The notes under the pieces are model-generated. The model worked only from the letters and a program-made list of their open reading frames with translations. It was not told where the DNA came from and ran no database searches. The position numbers were made by a program, and so were the translations under genes. A DNA stretch of 64,000 bases. Origin: Mucilaginibacter celer (GTDB lineage Bacteria; Bacteroidota; Bacteroidia; Sphingobacteriales; Sphingobacteriaceae). Below are positions 59,330-64,000 of the stretch, piece by piece; position 1 is the stretch's first letter, and each line of letters starts with the position of its first letter. The DNA is taken from assembly GCF_003576455.2 (NCBI RefSeq), contig NZ_CP032869.1:6014001-6078000 (forward strand). Direction: 5' to 3'.

Positions 59330-59851
59330 ATGGCAACTAAGATCAGACTACAAAGACACGGTAAAAAAGGTAAACCTTTTTATTACATCGTGGTAGCAGA
59401 CTCACGCGCTCCACGTGATGGACGCTTCATTGAGCGTTTAGGTTCATACAACCCAAACACTAACCCCGCAACTATCGACATCAACTTCGACAAAACTTTA
59501 GATTGGGTTAATAACGGTGCCCAGCCTACCGATACTTGTCGTGCTATCCTTTCATACAAAGGTGTGCTTTACAAAAAACACTTACAAGGTGGTGTTAAAA
59601 AAGGTGCTTTAACTGAAGAGCAACTTGAAACCAAATTTGCTGAATGGCTTGACCAGAAAGAAGGCAAAATCACCGGTAAAAAAACCAGCCTTAACGTAGC
59701 TAAAGATGAGGCCCGCAAAGCTGCATTAGCTGCCGAAGCTAAAAAGAGCGAAGAAAAAGCTGCTGCTATCGCCGCTAAAAACGCTCCTGTTGCCGAAGAA
59801 ACTGAAGCCGCTACAGAAGAAGCTGCTGAAAACACCGAAAGCGCAGAATAA
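59330..59851 (+). CDS. rpsP: Ribosomal protein bS16 with long C-terminal tail
   Basis: 173 residues; the bS16 core is about 1-85 ([25 protein letters not shown]..., [12 protein letters not shown]). The rest is a Lys/Ala/Glu-rich low-complexity tail absent from enterobacterial S16 (about 82 residues). Long tails of this kind are known in Bacteroidetes S16. First gene of the rpsP-rimM-trmD group. Confidence 0.95.
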
Positions 59852-59974: not shown

Positions 59975-60502
59975 ATGAAAACTGAAGATCATTTCAGGAT
60001 TGGCAGCGTTTTAAAAACCAAAGGCCTGAAAGGCGAGTTGCAGATCTACGTAGATTTTGATGGCATCGAGGCTATCAAATTTAATGCTGTATTTATTGAT
60101 ATTGCAGGCAAGCTGATCCCTTATTTTGTATCATCCATCAAATACCTGCAAAAAAATAACGCTTATTTAAACCTGGAGGATGTTGATACCATCGAAAAAG
60201 CGTTGCCGCTGGTAAAGCGTGATATCTATCTACCCAATAAATTAAAGCCGAAGAAAAAGAAAGAAGAGTTTACTCTAAACGATGTAGAAGGTTTTATCGC
60301 TATCGACGAGACGCACGGCGAATTGGGCGAGATCCTGAGCGTACAGGAGTATCCTCAACAACTGATAGCTACAGTTGAGTACAAAAACAAAGAAGTGATG
60401 TTTCCGCTTAACCTGGAGATTATTAAAGGTATTGATGTTGAAGGTGGTGAAATTTATGTTGACCTGCCCGAAGGCTTGCTGGATATTTATTTGGAAGGAT
60501 AG
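59975..60502 (+). CDS. rimM: Ribosome maturation factor RimM
   Basis: 175 residues: N-terminal RimM beta-barrel (RIGSVLKTKGLKGELQIYVD) and C-terminal PRC barrel (VEGFIAIDETHGELGEIL, MFPLNLEIIKGIDVEGG). It assists 30S head assembly and binds uS19. It follows rpsP as expected; trmD, usually next, begins only at 63605. Confidence 0.94.
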   Translation: MKTEDHFRIGSVLKTKGLKGELQIYVDFDGIEAIKFNAVFIDIAGKLIPYFVSSIKYLQKNNAYLNLEDVDTIEKALPLVKRDIYLPNKLKPKKKKEEFTLNDVEGFIAIDETHGELGEILSVQEYPQQLIATVEYKNKEVMFPLNLEIIKGIDVEGGEIYVDLPEGLLDIYLEG

Positions 60503-60601
60503 ATTTTAGAAGCGAGACTTTTAGAATAAAGAAGCATGATGCTACACTAATGCCCGTGTCTCCACGGGCATTTTTCGTTTAAAATTGGGTGCAAAATATT
60601 T

Positions 60602-60660
60602 TGTCAAATATATTTGACATTTGTAAAGTTTATTTTACATTTGGTAAATCAAACTTTACA
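60602..60660 (+). promoter_or_regulatory. Palindromic operator-like sites over the promoter
   Basis: TGTCAAATATATTTGACA (60602-60619) is an 18-bp perfect palindrome that covers the -33 element. TGTAAAGTTT (60622-60631) and AAACTTTACA (60651-60660) are inverted arms flanking the -7 element and start point. All carry TGT(C/A)AAA half-sites. A likely target of the XRE protein encoded in the same operon. Confidence 0.6.
60613..60643 (+). promoter_or_regulatory. Consensus Bacteroidetes promoter of the accessory operon
   Basis: TTTG at 60613-60616, exactly 19 nt, then TACATTTG at 60636-60643: a full match to both elements. The start codon is at 60664, so the leader is about 14 nt. Confidence 0.75.
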
Positions 60661-60663
60661 ATC

Positions 60664-61134
60664 ATGAAATCACGTTTTTTATTTCCGGCAAAAGCCCGCT
60701 TTTTAGGGTTGCTCTTATTTTTAGGAGGATTGGCATTTTATATTTATTCGCAAAACAGCACCAAAGAAATCCTCGTATGGCATAACCTTCCAAAATCGTT
60801 ACAAAGCCTTACAGGCAGCATATTGGATGAAAATTTTGACGATGAGGTCCAGCTATTCATGGTATTATCCGGCCTGATCCTTTTGGCGTTTTCAAAAGAA
60901 CGTGTGGAAGACGAGCACATCATTCAACTTCGCTCCGATTCGTTGCAATGGGCGGTTTATGTAAACTACTCGGTGTTCGCGGTTCTGATTTTTGTAGCTT
61001 ATGGGATTGGTTTCCTGATGTTTACCATGTATAATGTATTAACCCTGCTGGTGTTCTTCATTATCCGTTTCAGATGGAAGATATTTTTATTAAACAAAGG
61101 ATTAACTACCGAAGTGAAGGGGGCAATATCATGA
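60664..61134 (+). CDS. Small polytopic membrane protein, paralogue 1
   Basis: 156 residues from ATG 60664 (an earlier in-frame start would lie in the promoter). Four hydrophobic segments (about 12-28, 62-78, 98-116, 120-140). Signature FSKERVEDEHIIQLRSDSLQWAVYVNY between helices 2 and 3, and IIRFRWKIF near the end. Family not recognised; it resembles membrane partners found beside small XRE regulators. It overlaps paralogue 2 by ATGA. Confidence 0.8.
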   Translation: MKSRFLFPAKARFLGLLLFLGGLAFYIYSQNSTKEILVWHNLPKSLQSLTGSILDENFDDEVQLFMVLSGLILLAFSKERVEDEHIIQLRSDSLQWAVYVNYSVFAVLIFVAYGIGFLMFTMYNVLTLLVFFIIRFRWKIFLLNKGLTTEVKGAIS

Positions 61135-61568
61135 AATCACGCTTTTTATTTCCGCTTTGGTTCAGATACCTCGGCCTTGCGCTGTTCCTGATCCATATTC
61201 CTATTGTGATGTTTAAAAGAGACCTCGGCTTCAATACTCAGGATGAACCGGTAAACGAAGACCTGTTCAACAGCCATCACCTCTTTTTTATGCTCACCAC
61301 ATTACTTATGGCTATCGGTTTATTCTTTATCGCCTTCGCTAAAGAGCGCATTGAAGACGAACAGATTTTTCAGCTTCGCCTCGACTCATTGCAATGGGCC
61401 ATTTATGTAAATTATATACTTTTGGTAGTGAGTTTAATATTAAGTAAAGACACCGAACATATTTTATTTTTAAATTTACTGGTGCCGCTGGTTTTTTTCA
61501 TCGTGCGTTTCAGGTGGAAAATTTTTCAAAACAACCGTCTTATCAATAAGGAAGAGGGGCAGATATGA
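61131..61568 (+). CDS. Small polytopic membrane protein, paralogue 2
   Basis: 145 residues from ATG 61131. Begins MKSRFLFP as paralogue 1 does and shares KERIEDEQIFQLRLDSLQWA and VRFRWKIF, so the two arose by tandem duplication. Three or four membrane helices. It overlaps the XRE gene by ATGA, giving a tightly coupled three-gene unit. Confidence 0.8.
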   Translation: MKSRFLFPLWFRYLGLALFLIHIPIVMFKRDLGFNTQDEPVNEDLFNSHHLFFMLTTLLMAIGLFFIAFAKERIEDEQIFQLRLDSLQWAIYVNYILLVVSLILSKDTEHILFLNLLVPLVFFIVRFRWKIFQNNRLINKEEGQI

Positions 61569-61765
61569 AAAACAACATCAGGGTGGAGCGGGCCATCAAA
61601 AACATAACCCAGGCCGAACTGGCCGAACTGATAGGCGTATCGCGGCAAACCATCAATACCATCGAAAGCAACAGGTACGTACCATCAACCGTGCTGGCTT
61701 TAAAAATAGCCCGTGTATTTGGCAAGCCGGTTGAGGAAATTTTTAGCCTGGACGAAGAAGATTAA
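61565..61765 (+). CDS. XRE/Cro-family small transcriptional regulator
   Basis: 66 residues, almost only a helix-turn-helix: RVERAIKNITQAELAELIG, SRQTINTIESNRYVPST, LKIARVFGKPVEEIFSLDE. Similar small regulators (YozG/YgzD-like) accompany membrane proteins. It ends the coupled set and probably binds the palindromes at 60602-60660 to control its own operon. Confidence 0.9.
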   Translation: MKNNIRVERAIKNITQAELAELIGVSRQTINTIESNRYVPSTVLALKIARVFGKPVEEIFSLDEED

Positions 61766-61781
61766 CCAAACCCATATAACC

Positions 61782-62171
61782 ATGGCAACAAAACCAGCTT
61801 TCGCACCACAGTTGGCCATTCCGCATGGCGTAACTGACATTAGTTTTTATATTAACGCCTTAGGCGCTGTCGAGCTGCGCCGTTTCAGTAATGATGACGG
61901 CAGCATCCACGTATCCGAATTATCGATAAATGGCACCCTATTCCACCTGCACGAAGAAACAGAGCGCACGGCCGTACTTTGCCCCGATACCATTAAAGCC
62001 ACAAGCGTAACCATCGGTCTTTTTGTTGATGATGTGCACGCGGTAATGGAGCAGGCAAGGCAAGCCGGTGCTAAAGTTGCCTCGGAGGTACAGGATTATG
62101 ATTACGGCTACCGCCAGGGCGATTTTGTTGACCCCTTTGGGCACAGGTGGATGATTGAGAAAGCGATATAG
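61782..62171 (+). CDS. VOC family protein (glyoxalase/bleomycin-resistance-like) 1
   Basis: 129 residues from ATG 61782, 16 nt after the XRE gene. VOC beta-alpha-beta-beta-beta pattern: ITDISFYINALGAVELRRF-like start (GVTDISFYINALG), FVDDVHAVMEQARQAGAKV, and the C-terminal FVDPFGHRWMIEKAI typical of PhnB-like VOC members. Possible metal or small-molecule binding; substrate unknown. Confidence 0.88.
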   Translation: MATKPAFAPQLAIPHGVTDISFYINALGAVELRRFSNDDGSIHVSELSINGTLFHLHEETERTAVLCPDTIKATSVTIGLFVDDVHAVMEQARQAGAKVASEVQDYDYGYRQGDFVDPFGHRWMIEKAI

Positions 62172-62222
62172 GCGCAGAGAAGCAAGCTGTAAAAAATCAG
62201 TTAACAAGATAAAACACGCAAT

Positions 62223-62594
62223 ATGGCGAAGCAACCTACTTTCGGTAACGGCAAGATCTGCTACATCGAGATCCCGGCCATTGATATACCAACCTCGGCA
62301 AAGTTTTTTGAAACTGTTTTTGGATGGAATGTGCGAACGGATAATCACGGCTTCGCGGCCTTTGATGACGTCGTCGGCGAAGTAAGCGGCATGTGGGTAA
62401 CCGGCAGGGAACCAATGGGCAAGGCTGGCTTGCTGATATCTATTATGGTTGATGATGCCGCAACAGCTGTTAAATTAATAGAAGCTAACGGCGGGATAAT
62501 TATTAAACCGGTAGACAAGGAATCATCCGAAATTACCGCTCACTTTACGGATCCGGCCGGTAATTTATGGGGAATTTATCAGCACGGAGGATAA
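62223..62594 (+). CDS. VOC family protein 2
   Basis: 123 residues. CYIEIPAIDIPTSAKFFETVFGW start, VDDAATAVKLIEANGG middle and FTDPAGNLWGIYQH end fit the VOC superfamily (glyoxalase-like). It follows the first VOC gene by 51 nt, and a strong hairpin comes after it, so it probably ends the operon. Confidence 0.88.
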   Translation: MAKQPTFGNGKICYIEIPAIDIPTSAKFFETVFGWNVRTDNHGFAAFDDVVGEVSGMWVTGREPMGKAGLLISIMVDDAATAVKLIEANGGIIIKPVDKESSEITAHFTDPAGNLWGIYQHGG

Positions 62595-62596
62595 AG

Positions 62597-62642
62597 GCAT
62601 TAACGAACTGTTATACGATATTGTACAACAGTTCGTTAATGC
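62597..62642 (+). terminator. Hairpin after the second VOC gene
   Basis: A 16-bp perfect stem, GCATTAACGAACTGTT with its complement at 62627-62642, loop 14 nt, followed by TTTAATTAT. Confidence 0.7.
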
Positions 62643-62665
62643 TTTAATTATAAACCGATCACAAT

Positions 62666-63532
62666 ATGTTACTGCCCCGCTATTTTAAATTTATCGGATT
62701 TTTCCTGGTTATTCCCTCGCTGGTAATTGGTGTACTGTTTGAGTTTGCCGACTATGTTATCCCCTTTTTGAATTATCATGGAGGAAGGCGACGAGGCGCT
62801 ATGGCGGCTATTGGCGATCACAATATGACGGATGAAATAGCAACTACTCTTTTAATCTTCGGACTGTTTTTTATTGGCCTCAGCAAGTTAAAAAACGAAA
62901 ACGATCAAACACTTAAACTGAGGCTTAGCGCATTGTTTTGGGCCGTTTTAGTCGAGGGGGTTTCTGAGTCGGCATTGTTAATCGTCTTCAATTCCGGGTT
63001 ATTCCAAATTGATTTTATCCAACAATACGATACGCCTGTTCTCGTTTTCATAAACAATAACAATCTGGTTATTTTATTCATCACCTATCTATTACGATTT
63101 TACTATTTGTATTACTGTAATAAACAGAGCCCGAAGCCATACTATATTTCATTCCGCCCGTTGGTCTTAGCGGCCAAAGCAATCACCATTATATTGCTCA
63201 CCTATATCCTTGGTGCTTCATTAGATCTTATTAAAATAAAAGCGCTCGACTATGCAATTTTCATTTTATTACCGGCAATTTTGATATGGGTCGGCTCTGG
63301 CGACCAAACAAAAGGTGAGTTGATCGAGCCCATCAGGTTAAAGGCTATGCTTATAAGTGTAGGTTTTAATTATAGCTTATTTATTGTGCTAACATGGGCC
63401 GTTTACGGCATCAACTATCTTGCAGTGCAATATATTAGCATGGCTTCCGTGCCGCTTTTGTTTATTCCGCTTTTTTATTGGCTTAAATCACGGCAAAAAT
63501 CACAACCGGGAGTTACAGTTTCACTTTCGTAG
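62666..63532 (+). CDS. Polytopic membrane protein, fused relative of the two small paralogues
   Basis: 288 residues, about eight membrane helices. The first half (LIFGLFFIGLSKLKNENDQTLKLRLSALFWAVLVE-like region, about 68-102) and the second (IEPIRLKAMLISVGFNY then LTWAVYGINYL, about 218-255) both match the LR...SLQWAVYVNY region of the 60664 and 61131 proteins, so it looks like two diverged copies joined. Function unknown. It has its own position after the terminator and precedes trmD by 72 nt. Confidence 0.75.
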   Translation: MLLPRYFKFIGFFLVIPSLVIGVLFEFADYVIPFLNYHGGRRRGAMAAIGDHNMTDEIATTLLIFGLFFIGLSKLKNENDQTLKLRLSALFWAVLVEGVSESALLIVFNSGLFQIDFIQQYDTPVLVFINNNNLVILFITYLLRFYYLYYCNKQSPKPYYISFRPLVLAAKAITIILLTYILGASLDLIKIKALDYAIFILLPAILIWVGSGDQTKGELIEPIRLKAMLISVGFNYSLFIVLTWAVYGINYLAVQYISMASVPLLFIPLFYWLKSRQKSQPGVTVSLS

Positions 63533-63604
63533 GCCAACTATTCCTCCCCCGCATTCGCAAATTTGATCTCCGCATATCTGCATATTGATTTATTATCTTT
63601 GCGC

Positions 63605-64000
63605 ATGCGTTTTGATATCATCTCTGTTTTGCCCGGTTTGCTCGAAAGTCCTTTTGCTCACTCAATTTTACAGCGTGCGCAAAAAAAAGGTATTTCTGAA
63701 ATTGTAGTCCATAACCTGCGCGACTATGCTACCAATAAGCAAAAAAGCGTGGATGATTATCCTTACGGCGGCGGCAGCGGCATGGTAATGACCATTCCGC
63801 CTTTTGCAGCCTGTATTGAAAAGCTAAAATCAGAACGGGAATACGACGAGATCATTTTTATGAGCCCAGATGGCGAAACCCTTAACCAGGCTATAGCCAA
63901 CCAACTCTCCATCAAAAAAAACATCATTATACTTTGCGGCCATTACAAGGGGATAGATCAGCGCATCCGTGATATTTATGTAACCCGCGAAATCTCGATA
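63605..64000 (+). CDS. trmD: tRNA (guanine37-N1)-methyltransferase, 5' part (continues past window end)
   Basis: The first 132 residues of TrmD are visible: [20 protein letters not shown] start, [11 protein letters not shown] (SAM/tRNA loop), and [12 protein letters not shown] of the trefoil knot. It methylates G37 in tRNAs reading CNN or GGN codons, preventing frameshifts. ATG 63605 is the only fitting start. Confidence 0.95.

Follow-up and report, generated by a model that had tools for sequence, protein, structure and literature searches.

A membrane-protein/XRE operon between rimM and trmD of Mucilaginibacter celer, possibly autorepressed and working like the enterococcal CylR1/CylR2 switch

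Among the closest described systems is the regulatory pair CylR1/CylR2, which belongs to the cytolysin operon of Enterococcus faecalis. According to a review (PMC3709268), CylR2 is a repressor acting on the promoter, while CylR1 is suspected to be a membrane protein and is needed for induction. There, CylR1 has three predicted helices, cylR1 and cylR2 are divergently transcribed, and the two are considered a possible two-component system that operates without phosphorelay and by a mechanism not yet understood. A similar regulator pair, Bib1R1/Bib1R2, appears in Bacillus thuringiensis (PMC11343131). The subject here is a block of genes from Mucilaginibacter celer (Bacteroidota, Sphingobacteriaceae) which encodes related membrane proteins (MPs) and a small XRE-type regulator, and which fills the 3.1 kb between the end of rimM (60502) and the ATG of trmD (63605). 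The window, to which all coordinates refer, is the whole stretch of 64,000 nucleotides analysed (contig NZ_CP032869.1, positions 6,014,001 to 6,078,000); it stops within trmD and belongs to a genome assembled as a single contig of 7.15 Mb.

We propose, with about even confidence, that the block represents an autorepressed operon, long established and organised around the MP-XRE pair, and that it may work like the enterococcal switch. The elements concerned are the following:

60602..60619, + strand: operator-like site O1, a perfect palindrome, TGTCAAATATATTTGACA, which includes the -33 TTTG (60613-60616)
60622..60639, + strand: operator-like site O2, TGTAAAGTTTATTTTACA, its centre 20 bp from that of O1
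60636..60643, + strand: -7 element TACATTTG (TAnnTTTG), 19 bp past the -33 TTTG and overlapped by O2 and O3
60643..60660, + strand: operator-like site O3, GGTAAATCAAACTTTACA, one mismatch, its centre 21 bp from that of O2
60664..61134, + strand: MP1, 156 amino acids (aa), membrane protein of the MKxRFLFP/KExxEDE family
61131..61568, + strand: MP2, 145 aa, membrane protein with four predicted helices and a KERIEDE loop predicted to be cytoplasmic
61565..61765, + strand: XRE, 66 aa, helix-turn-helix protein of CylR2/PbsX type (HTH_3, E-value 1.2e-14), presumed autorepressor
62666..63532, + strand: MP3, 288 aa, two-repeat member of the MP family in which the KExxEDE motif has decayed

One line of evidence comes from the region upstream of MP1, where 18-bp sites of consensus TGTMAAn6TTKACA, 20-21 bp apart, overlap a TTTG-N19-TACATTTG arrangement that we take to be a promoter of the Bacteroidota -33/-7 type. 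The corresponding regions of 74 named loci were examined together with that of the window (75 regions), allowing at most two mismatches per site. At least one operator-like site was found in all 75, at least two in 66 and at least three in 39, while 99 of the 106 pairs of successive sites had a spacing of 20 or 21 bp. In total there were 181 sites against 4.2 expected in shuffled sequences, and the -33/-7 pattern occurred in 64/75 regions against 0.94 expected; these shuffled controls retain nothing of the original sequences but their base composition, and kinship means that the loci are not independent samples. All 25 loci from other genera of the family also carry at least one site, as do 22 of 25 loci sampled across the class (1.2 expected). 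The host genome contains four exact matches to the operator pattern, and only here do two of them form a pair; since a reversed-pattern control gave two matches per strand, the other two are at chance level. A generic sigma-70 scan returned 11 sites for 11.4 expected, no excess over shuffles, and is uninformative by itself. An earlier note made from the sequence of this DNA had credited the block with its own promoter and with self-regulation; the first is upheld by conservation across relatives and the second, as an apparent property, by the conserved operator-like sites.

The XRE protein resembles small regulators of the CylR2 and PbsX types. It matches CylR2 (1utx) with an E-value of 2.3e-14 over residues 3-62, 33 of the 60 aligned residues being identical (midline count), and shares as many identical residues with a PbsX-family structure of nearly equal length (9k3w, 65 aa; E-value 7e-16, 33/60 identical), a likeness of sequence. 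The host genome has no second close copy, the next match reaching an E-value of 1.5e-4 at 36% identity. XRE is also well conserved across 42 loci, with a mean pairwise difference of 0.157 against 0.306 for rimM and 0.463 for MP. From the conserved sites we infer autorepression, in which XRE dimers would bind the tandem sites O1-O3 over the -33/-7 elements and shut the promoter.

The membrane proteins form a family of their own. MP1 and MP2 are homologous (44% identity), and MP3 is a diverged two-repeat relative of both, detected with an E-value of 0.018 from a single sequence and of 2e-13 by profile. One scan found MP relatives encoded in 324 stretches, and the number of MPs per operon varies from one to three, two-repeat fusions included. 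MP1, MP2 and MP3 have no family above the curated cut-off in Pfam or NCBIfam and no match in PADLOC; identities offered by Pfam and NCBIfam were rejected, since the matches were sub-threshold and mutually inconsistent. An AlphaFold model of MP2 has four helices (10-31, 48-68, 76-104 and 108-143). Over 76 family members, residues L6, G15, F69, E72, E75, D76, E77, R83 and L87 of MP2 are invariant, and the charge distribution suggests a cytoplasmic location for both termini and for the KExxEDE loop.

These properties also bear on another role for the membrane proteins, as effectors in immunity, permeability or transport, XRE being only an autorepressor that answers a small ligand or its own dilution and no membrane signalling taking place. 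Such a role is possible but doubtful. It would suit the high conservation of XRE beside MPs that diversify and multiply, and it draws on weak matches of four of the 76 MPs to Colicin_im (best E-value 0.0027). However, the Pfam matches disagree among themselves, and the best-conserved segment of the MPs is the charged loop (E72, E75, D76, E77, R83), whose predicted position on the cytoplasmic side suggests a partner inside the cell. An addiction pair of the toxin-antitoxin kind, kept beside essential genes and with XRE neutralising or repressing the MP as a membrane toxin, appears improbable. The pair is small, apparently autoregulated and encoded by overlapping genes, and XRE does score against HipB- and HigA-type antitoxins, always under cut-off; but several different MPs accompany one XRE, no toxin family was matched above cut-off in Pfam or NCBIfam, or at all in PADLOC (a toxin of a new family would escape such searches), and the pair comes and goes between genomes, leaving only fragmentary xre traces (below).

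Under the autorepressed-switch reading, the four-helix MPs might sense a membrane-active or extracellular signal and might then withdraw or inactivate XRE through the conserved, predicted cytoplasmic KExxEDE loop, both steps being more weakly inferred than repression itself. Derepression would raise MP, XRE and, in Mucilaginibacter, two proteins of the VOC superfamily, which could bind or modify a small molecule as an added output. Several features are shared with CylR1/CylR2: a 66-aa CylR2-type protein is coupled with a small multi-helix membrane protein, there is no kinase or phosphorelay, and operator-like sites lie on the promoter. In contrast to the enterococcal system, the MP-XRE pair stands inside the operon that it would control, there are up to three MPs together with VOC genes, lanthipeptide genes are lacking, and the promoter is of the Bacteroidota type. 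Since the module matches the design of CylR1/CylR2 and not its output genes, we describe it as working like that system without classing it as a member. In literature on CylR1/CylR2, the PbsX family and rimM-trmD in Bacteroidetes or Mucilaginibacter, a survey mostly short of full text, we found no description of the module.

The remaining genes of the block and its surroundings are arranged as follows:

59330..59851, + strand: rpsP, ribosomal protein S16, upstream flank (Pfam Ribosomal_S16, E-value 1e-25)
59975..60502, + strand: rimM, left border (Pfam PRC_RimM, E-value 4.7e-13; RimM, E-value 3.2e-11)
60549..60572, + strand: hairpin after rimM resembling an intrinsic terminator, a 10-pair stem followed by a T-run
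61782..62171, + strand: VOC1, glyoxalase/bleomycin-resistance superfamily (Pfam Glyoxalase, E-value 3.1e-8)
62223..62594, + strand: VOC2, glyoxalase/bleomycin-resistance superfamily (Pfam Glyoxalase, E-value 6.1e-8)
62597..62642, no strand assigned: long inverted repeat separating VOC2 from MP3, resembling a terminator when read on the - strand
63594..63601, + strand: TATCTTTG, a -7-type box ending three bases before the trmD ATG
63605..64000, + strand: 5′ part of trmD, which continues beyond the window end (Pfam tRNA_m1G_MT, E-value 8.8e-27)

The six genes in the gap thus follow the order MP1-MP2-XRE-VOC1-VOC2-(inverted repeat)-MP3, all on the + strand, and ATGA overlaps join MP1 to MP2 and MP2 to XRE. 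This agrees with the earlier description of 3.1 kb between rimM and trmD, confirmed by gene coordinates and Pfam, of three related membrane proteins, an XRE regulator and two VOC proteins, and of overlaps among the first three genes. The terminator that it also assigned to the block is a more divided matter: the hairpin at 60549-60572, with similar hairpins in the close relatives L136-L140, closes the rimM side, but the inverted repeat (62597-62642) comes after VOC2 and still ahead of MP3, and so does not mark the end of the block.

How far this arrangement extends was examined at three levels. Within the genus, 100 Mucilaginibacter genomes were searched with rimM, trmD and MP2, and 72 of them contain an MP (E-value at most 1e-3), mostly on a contig stretch adjoining rimM or trmD, with a few weak matches elsewhere (for example G087:C1:492894 and G111:C1:2113141). 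For 73 junctions, a single locus contains both rimM and trmD in the usual order. L123 and L124, where the two genes lie on opposite strands, were set aside, and in the other genomes outside this set rimM and trmD were on separate contigs, far apart or undetected, or the junction was not retrieved in full. An MP is present at 56 of the 73 junctions, with XRE directly behind it in all 56. The 17 MP-less junctions comprise 14 without any family of the block and three with VOC alone, and the rimM-trmD distance is below 260 bp in 12 of the 73. Across the named loci MP and XRE are linked in 77/79, the two misses (L175 and L179) being MP genes at or near a contig end.

In the family, MP was found in 47 of 201 Sphingobacteriaceae genomes (E-value at most 1e-4) belonging to 12 of 25 genera. 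Of 26 loci from other genera, 25 were examined (G231 was left out) and every one has XRE; 15 of these occupy the rimM-trmD junction, the genera being g29, g35, g36, g37, g44 and g48. The small-genome genus g29 (1.5-1.8 Mb) carries MP-XRE in five of six genomes, the sixth being 60% complete and also without a rimM or trmD match. At the class level (49/395 genomes with MP at an E-value of at most 1e-5), 25 loci were inspected with about 1.5 kb on each side, five Mucilaginibacter loci being left out; only L266, a member of the Sphingobacteriaceae, is at trmD. MP-XRE is hence an old pair of the Bacteroidia, and its seat between rimM and trmD has so far been seen only in Sphingobacteriaceae. The earlier note had proposed that conservation across the whole family would mark the arrangement as ancestral: the same seat does recur in seven genera, but 154/201 family genomes have no MP match.

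Other junction contents were noted in passing. A conserved open reading frame (ORF) of 66 aa, starting MENFD and matching none of the classes used, lies between rimM and the MP genes in L070 (1363-1563, oriented), L072, L093 and L104, all from related Mucilaginibacter genomes. In L240-L253 (g37 and two of g44) the junction holds unrelated genes, for instance a lipoprotein-like ORF of about 200 aa. The idea that diverged MP-XRE copies are hidden in the several-hundred-bp gaps of other genera was rejected: none of 15 loci (L240-L254, mostly g37) gave an MP match, and these gaps contain other genes or no clear gene. ORFs of 309 aa were seen in L038 (3301-4230) and L053 (3104-4033, oriented) and also in L096, L137 and L161; those of L038 and L053 look by eye like insertion sequence (IS) transposases with a zinc-ribbon-like N-terminus, and the rimM-trmD junction seems to collect insertion elements.

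The earlier note viewed the block as an accessory insertion, and a recent capture of a genomic islet at this junction in the lineage of the window would account for the 17 of 73 junctions without MP, the 12 where rimM and trmD are less than 260 bp apart, and the IS-transposase-like and unrelated genes that the junction accepts elsewhere. We judge such a recent event very improbable, as MP is present in all seven members of the window clade and the pair occupies the same seat in six other genera. On a rimM+trmD tree of 105 loci (103 scored), MP state changes 17 times. A tblastn search of the 17 MP-less junctions recovered the 3′ end of xre in L061 (77.8% over 27 residues, E-value 4e-11) and L102 (70% over 20 residues, E-value 3e-6) and no MP remnant; some empty junctions are therefore losses. 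Mantel tests on pairwise distances over 42 loci gave r 0.45 for MP against rimM, 0.55 for MP against trmD, 0.46 for XRE against rimM and 0.34 for XRE against trmD, with 0/2000 permutations as high in each case; such correlations fit inheritance that is mainly vertical, or else transfer between close relatives. The proteins of the block include no transposase or integrase family in Pfam. What survives of the accessory view is that the terminator-like hairpin sets the module off from rimM; a recent or strain-level insertion does not fit a seat kept at 56/73 junctions and in six further genera.

Nor is the block the self-contained set of six genes that it had first appeared to be. Its core is MP-XRE, the numbers of VOC and MP genes vary, and unrelated genes join in some species. 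VOC1 and VOC2 both exceed the Pfam Glyoxalase cut-off, and neither has an NCBIfam family above its cut-off. VOC genes are found in 46/56 MP-occupied Mucilaginibacter junctions, with zero to two VOC ORFs each. They also stand behind MP-XRE at L185, L188, L191, L194 and L195, five loci where the examined DNA includes neither rimM nor trmD, so residence at the trmD locus does not by itself explain the linkage. The association of VOC with the pair is a looser one. In L042 (2206-3417) and L105 (3840-4316, oriented coordinates) an additional domain of roughly 155 aa, by eye resembling a CoA/NAD-binding fold, is either fused to the VOC protein or placed ahead of it.

Under the autorepressed-operon reading, a promoter-like box of its own would let trmD tolerate separation from rimM. 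Of 61 loci, the window and the named ones taken together, 47 have a TAnnTTTG box no more than 60 nucleotides upstream of trmD (1.5 expected). In the genus set, 42/56 occupied junctions carry the box (1.8 expected), as do 18/20 loci of other arrangement (0.5 expected) and three of the nine empty junctions parsed out of 12 (0.5 expected); the difference between occupied and empty junctions has a Fisher p of 0.02, uncorrected for kinship. As the box precedes trmD at most occupied junctions, trmD need not depend there on read-through alone. In several Mucilaginibacter genomes rimM and trmD have been separated (L109/L110 of G027, L123, L124, L112, L113 and L115), MP-XRE then remaining with rimM (L109 and L113) or with trmD (L112 and L115).

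Taken more broadly, and more tentatively than for the operon itself, the module may represent a widespread and undescribed one-operon membrane signalling system of the Bacteroidia. One to three diversifying four-helix receptors would share a single, highly conserved CylR2-type repressor, acting at its own promoter through as many as three phased operators. The operon would often be seated between rimM and trmD in Sphingobacteriaceae, and VOC enzymes would have been acquired as output in Mucilaginibacter and a few other lineages.

A number of observations weigh against the proposed switch. The MPs have four predicted helices and CylR1 three (PMC3709268), and the likeness proposed between MP and CylR1 is one of design. 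The MP2 structure model is weak, with a mean pLDDT of 68.5; a fold search of the PDB with this low-confidence model gave at best a Foldseek E-value of 1.6 and a VIA Z of 6.1, and, as these matches are weak and among unrelated proteins, the search is uninformative. The MP profile matched no PDB sequence up to an E-value of 10. The block holds no lanthipeptide or other obvious signal gene, and none of the six proteins passes a Pfam or NCBIfam cut-off for a lanthipeptide gene family. At the class level three of 25 loci are without an operator-like site and three of 25 without an XRE match (XRE in 22/25). VOC genes are missing from 10/56 occupied junctions, from four Spirosoma loci and from all 25 class-level loci (within about 1.5 kb on each side); being absent from many MP-XRE loci, they are not needed for the core. 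Finally, trmD had been expected to rely on read-through or a new promoter, and the promoter-like box upstream of it would fit the latter, but L136-L140, which are close relatives, lack the box in its exact form.

Should the proposed switch be correct, a Gram-negative family with many natural variants, a conserved operator and a conserved loop predicted to be cytoplasmic would make the poorly understood step from membrane to repressor testable by reporter genetics, and a family of membrane proteins with no Pfam entry above cut-off would gain a regulatory partner and a promoter. It would also suggest how an essential gene, trmD, can uncouple from its usual neighbours through a promoter of its own.

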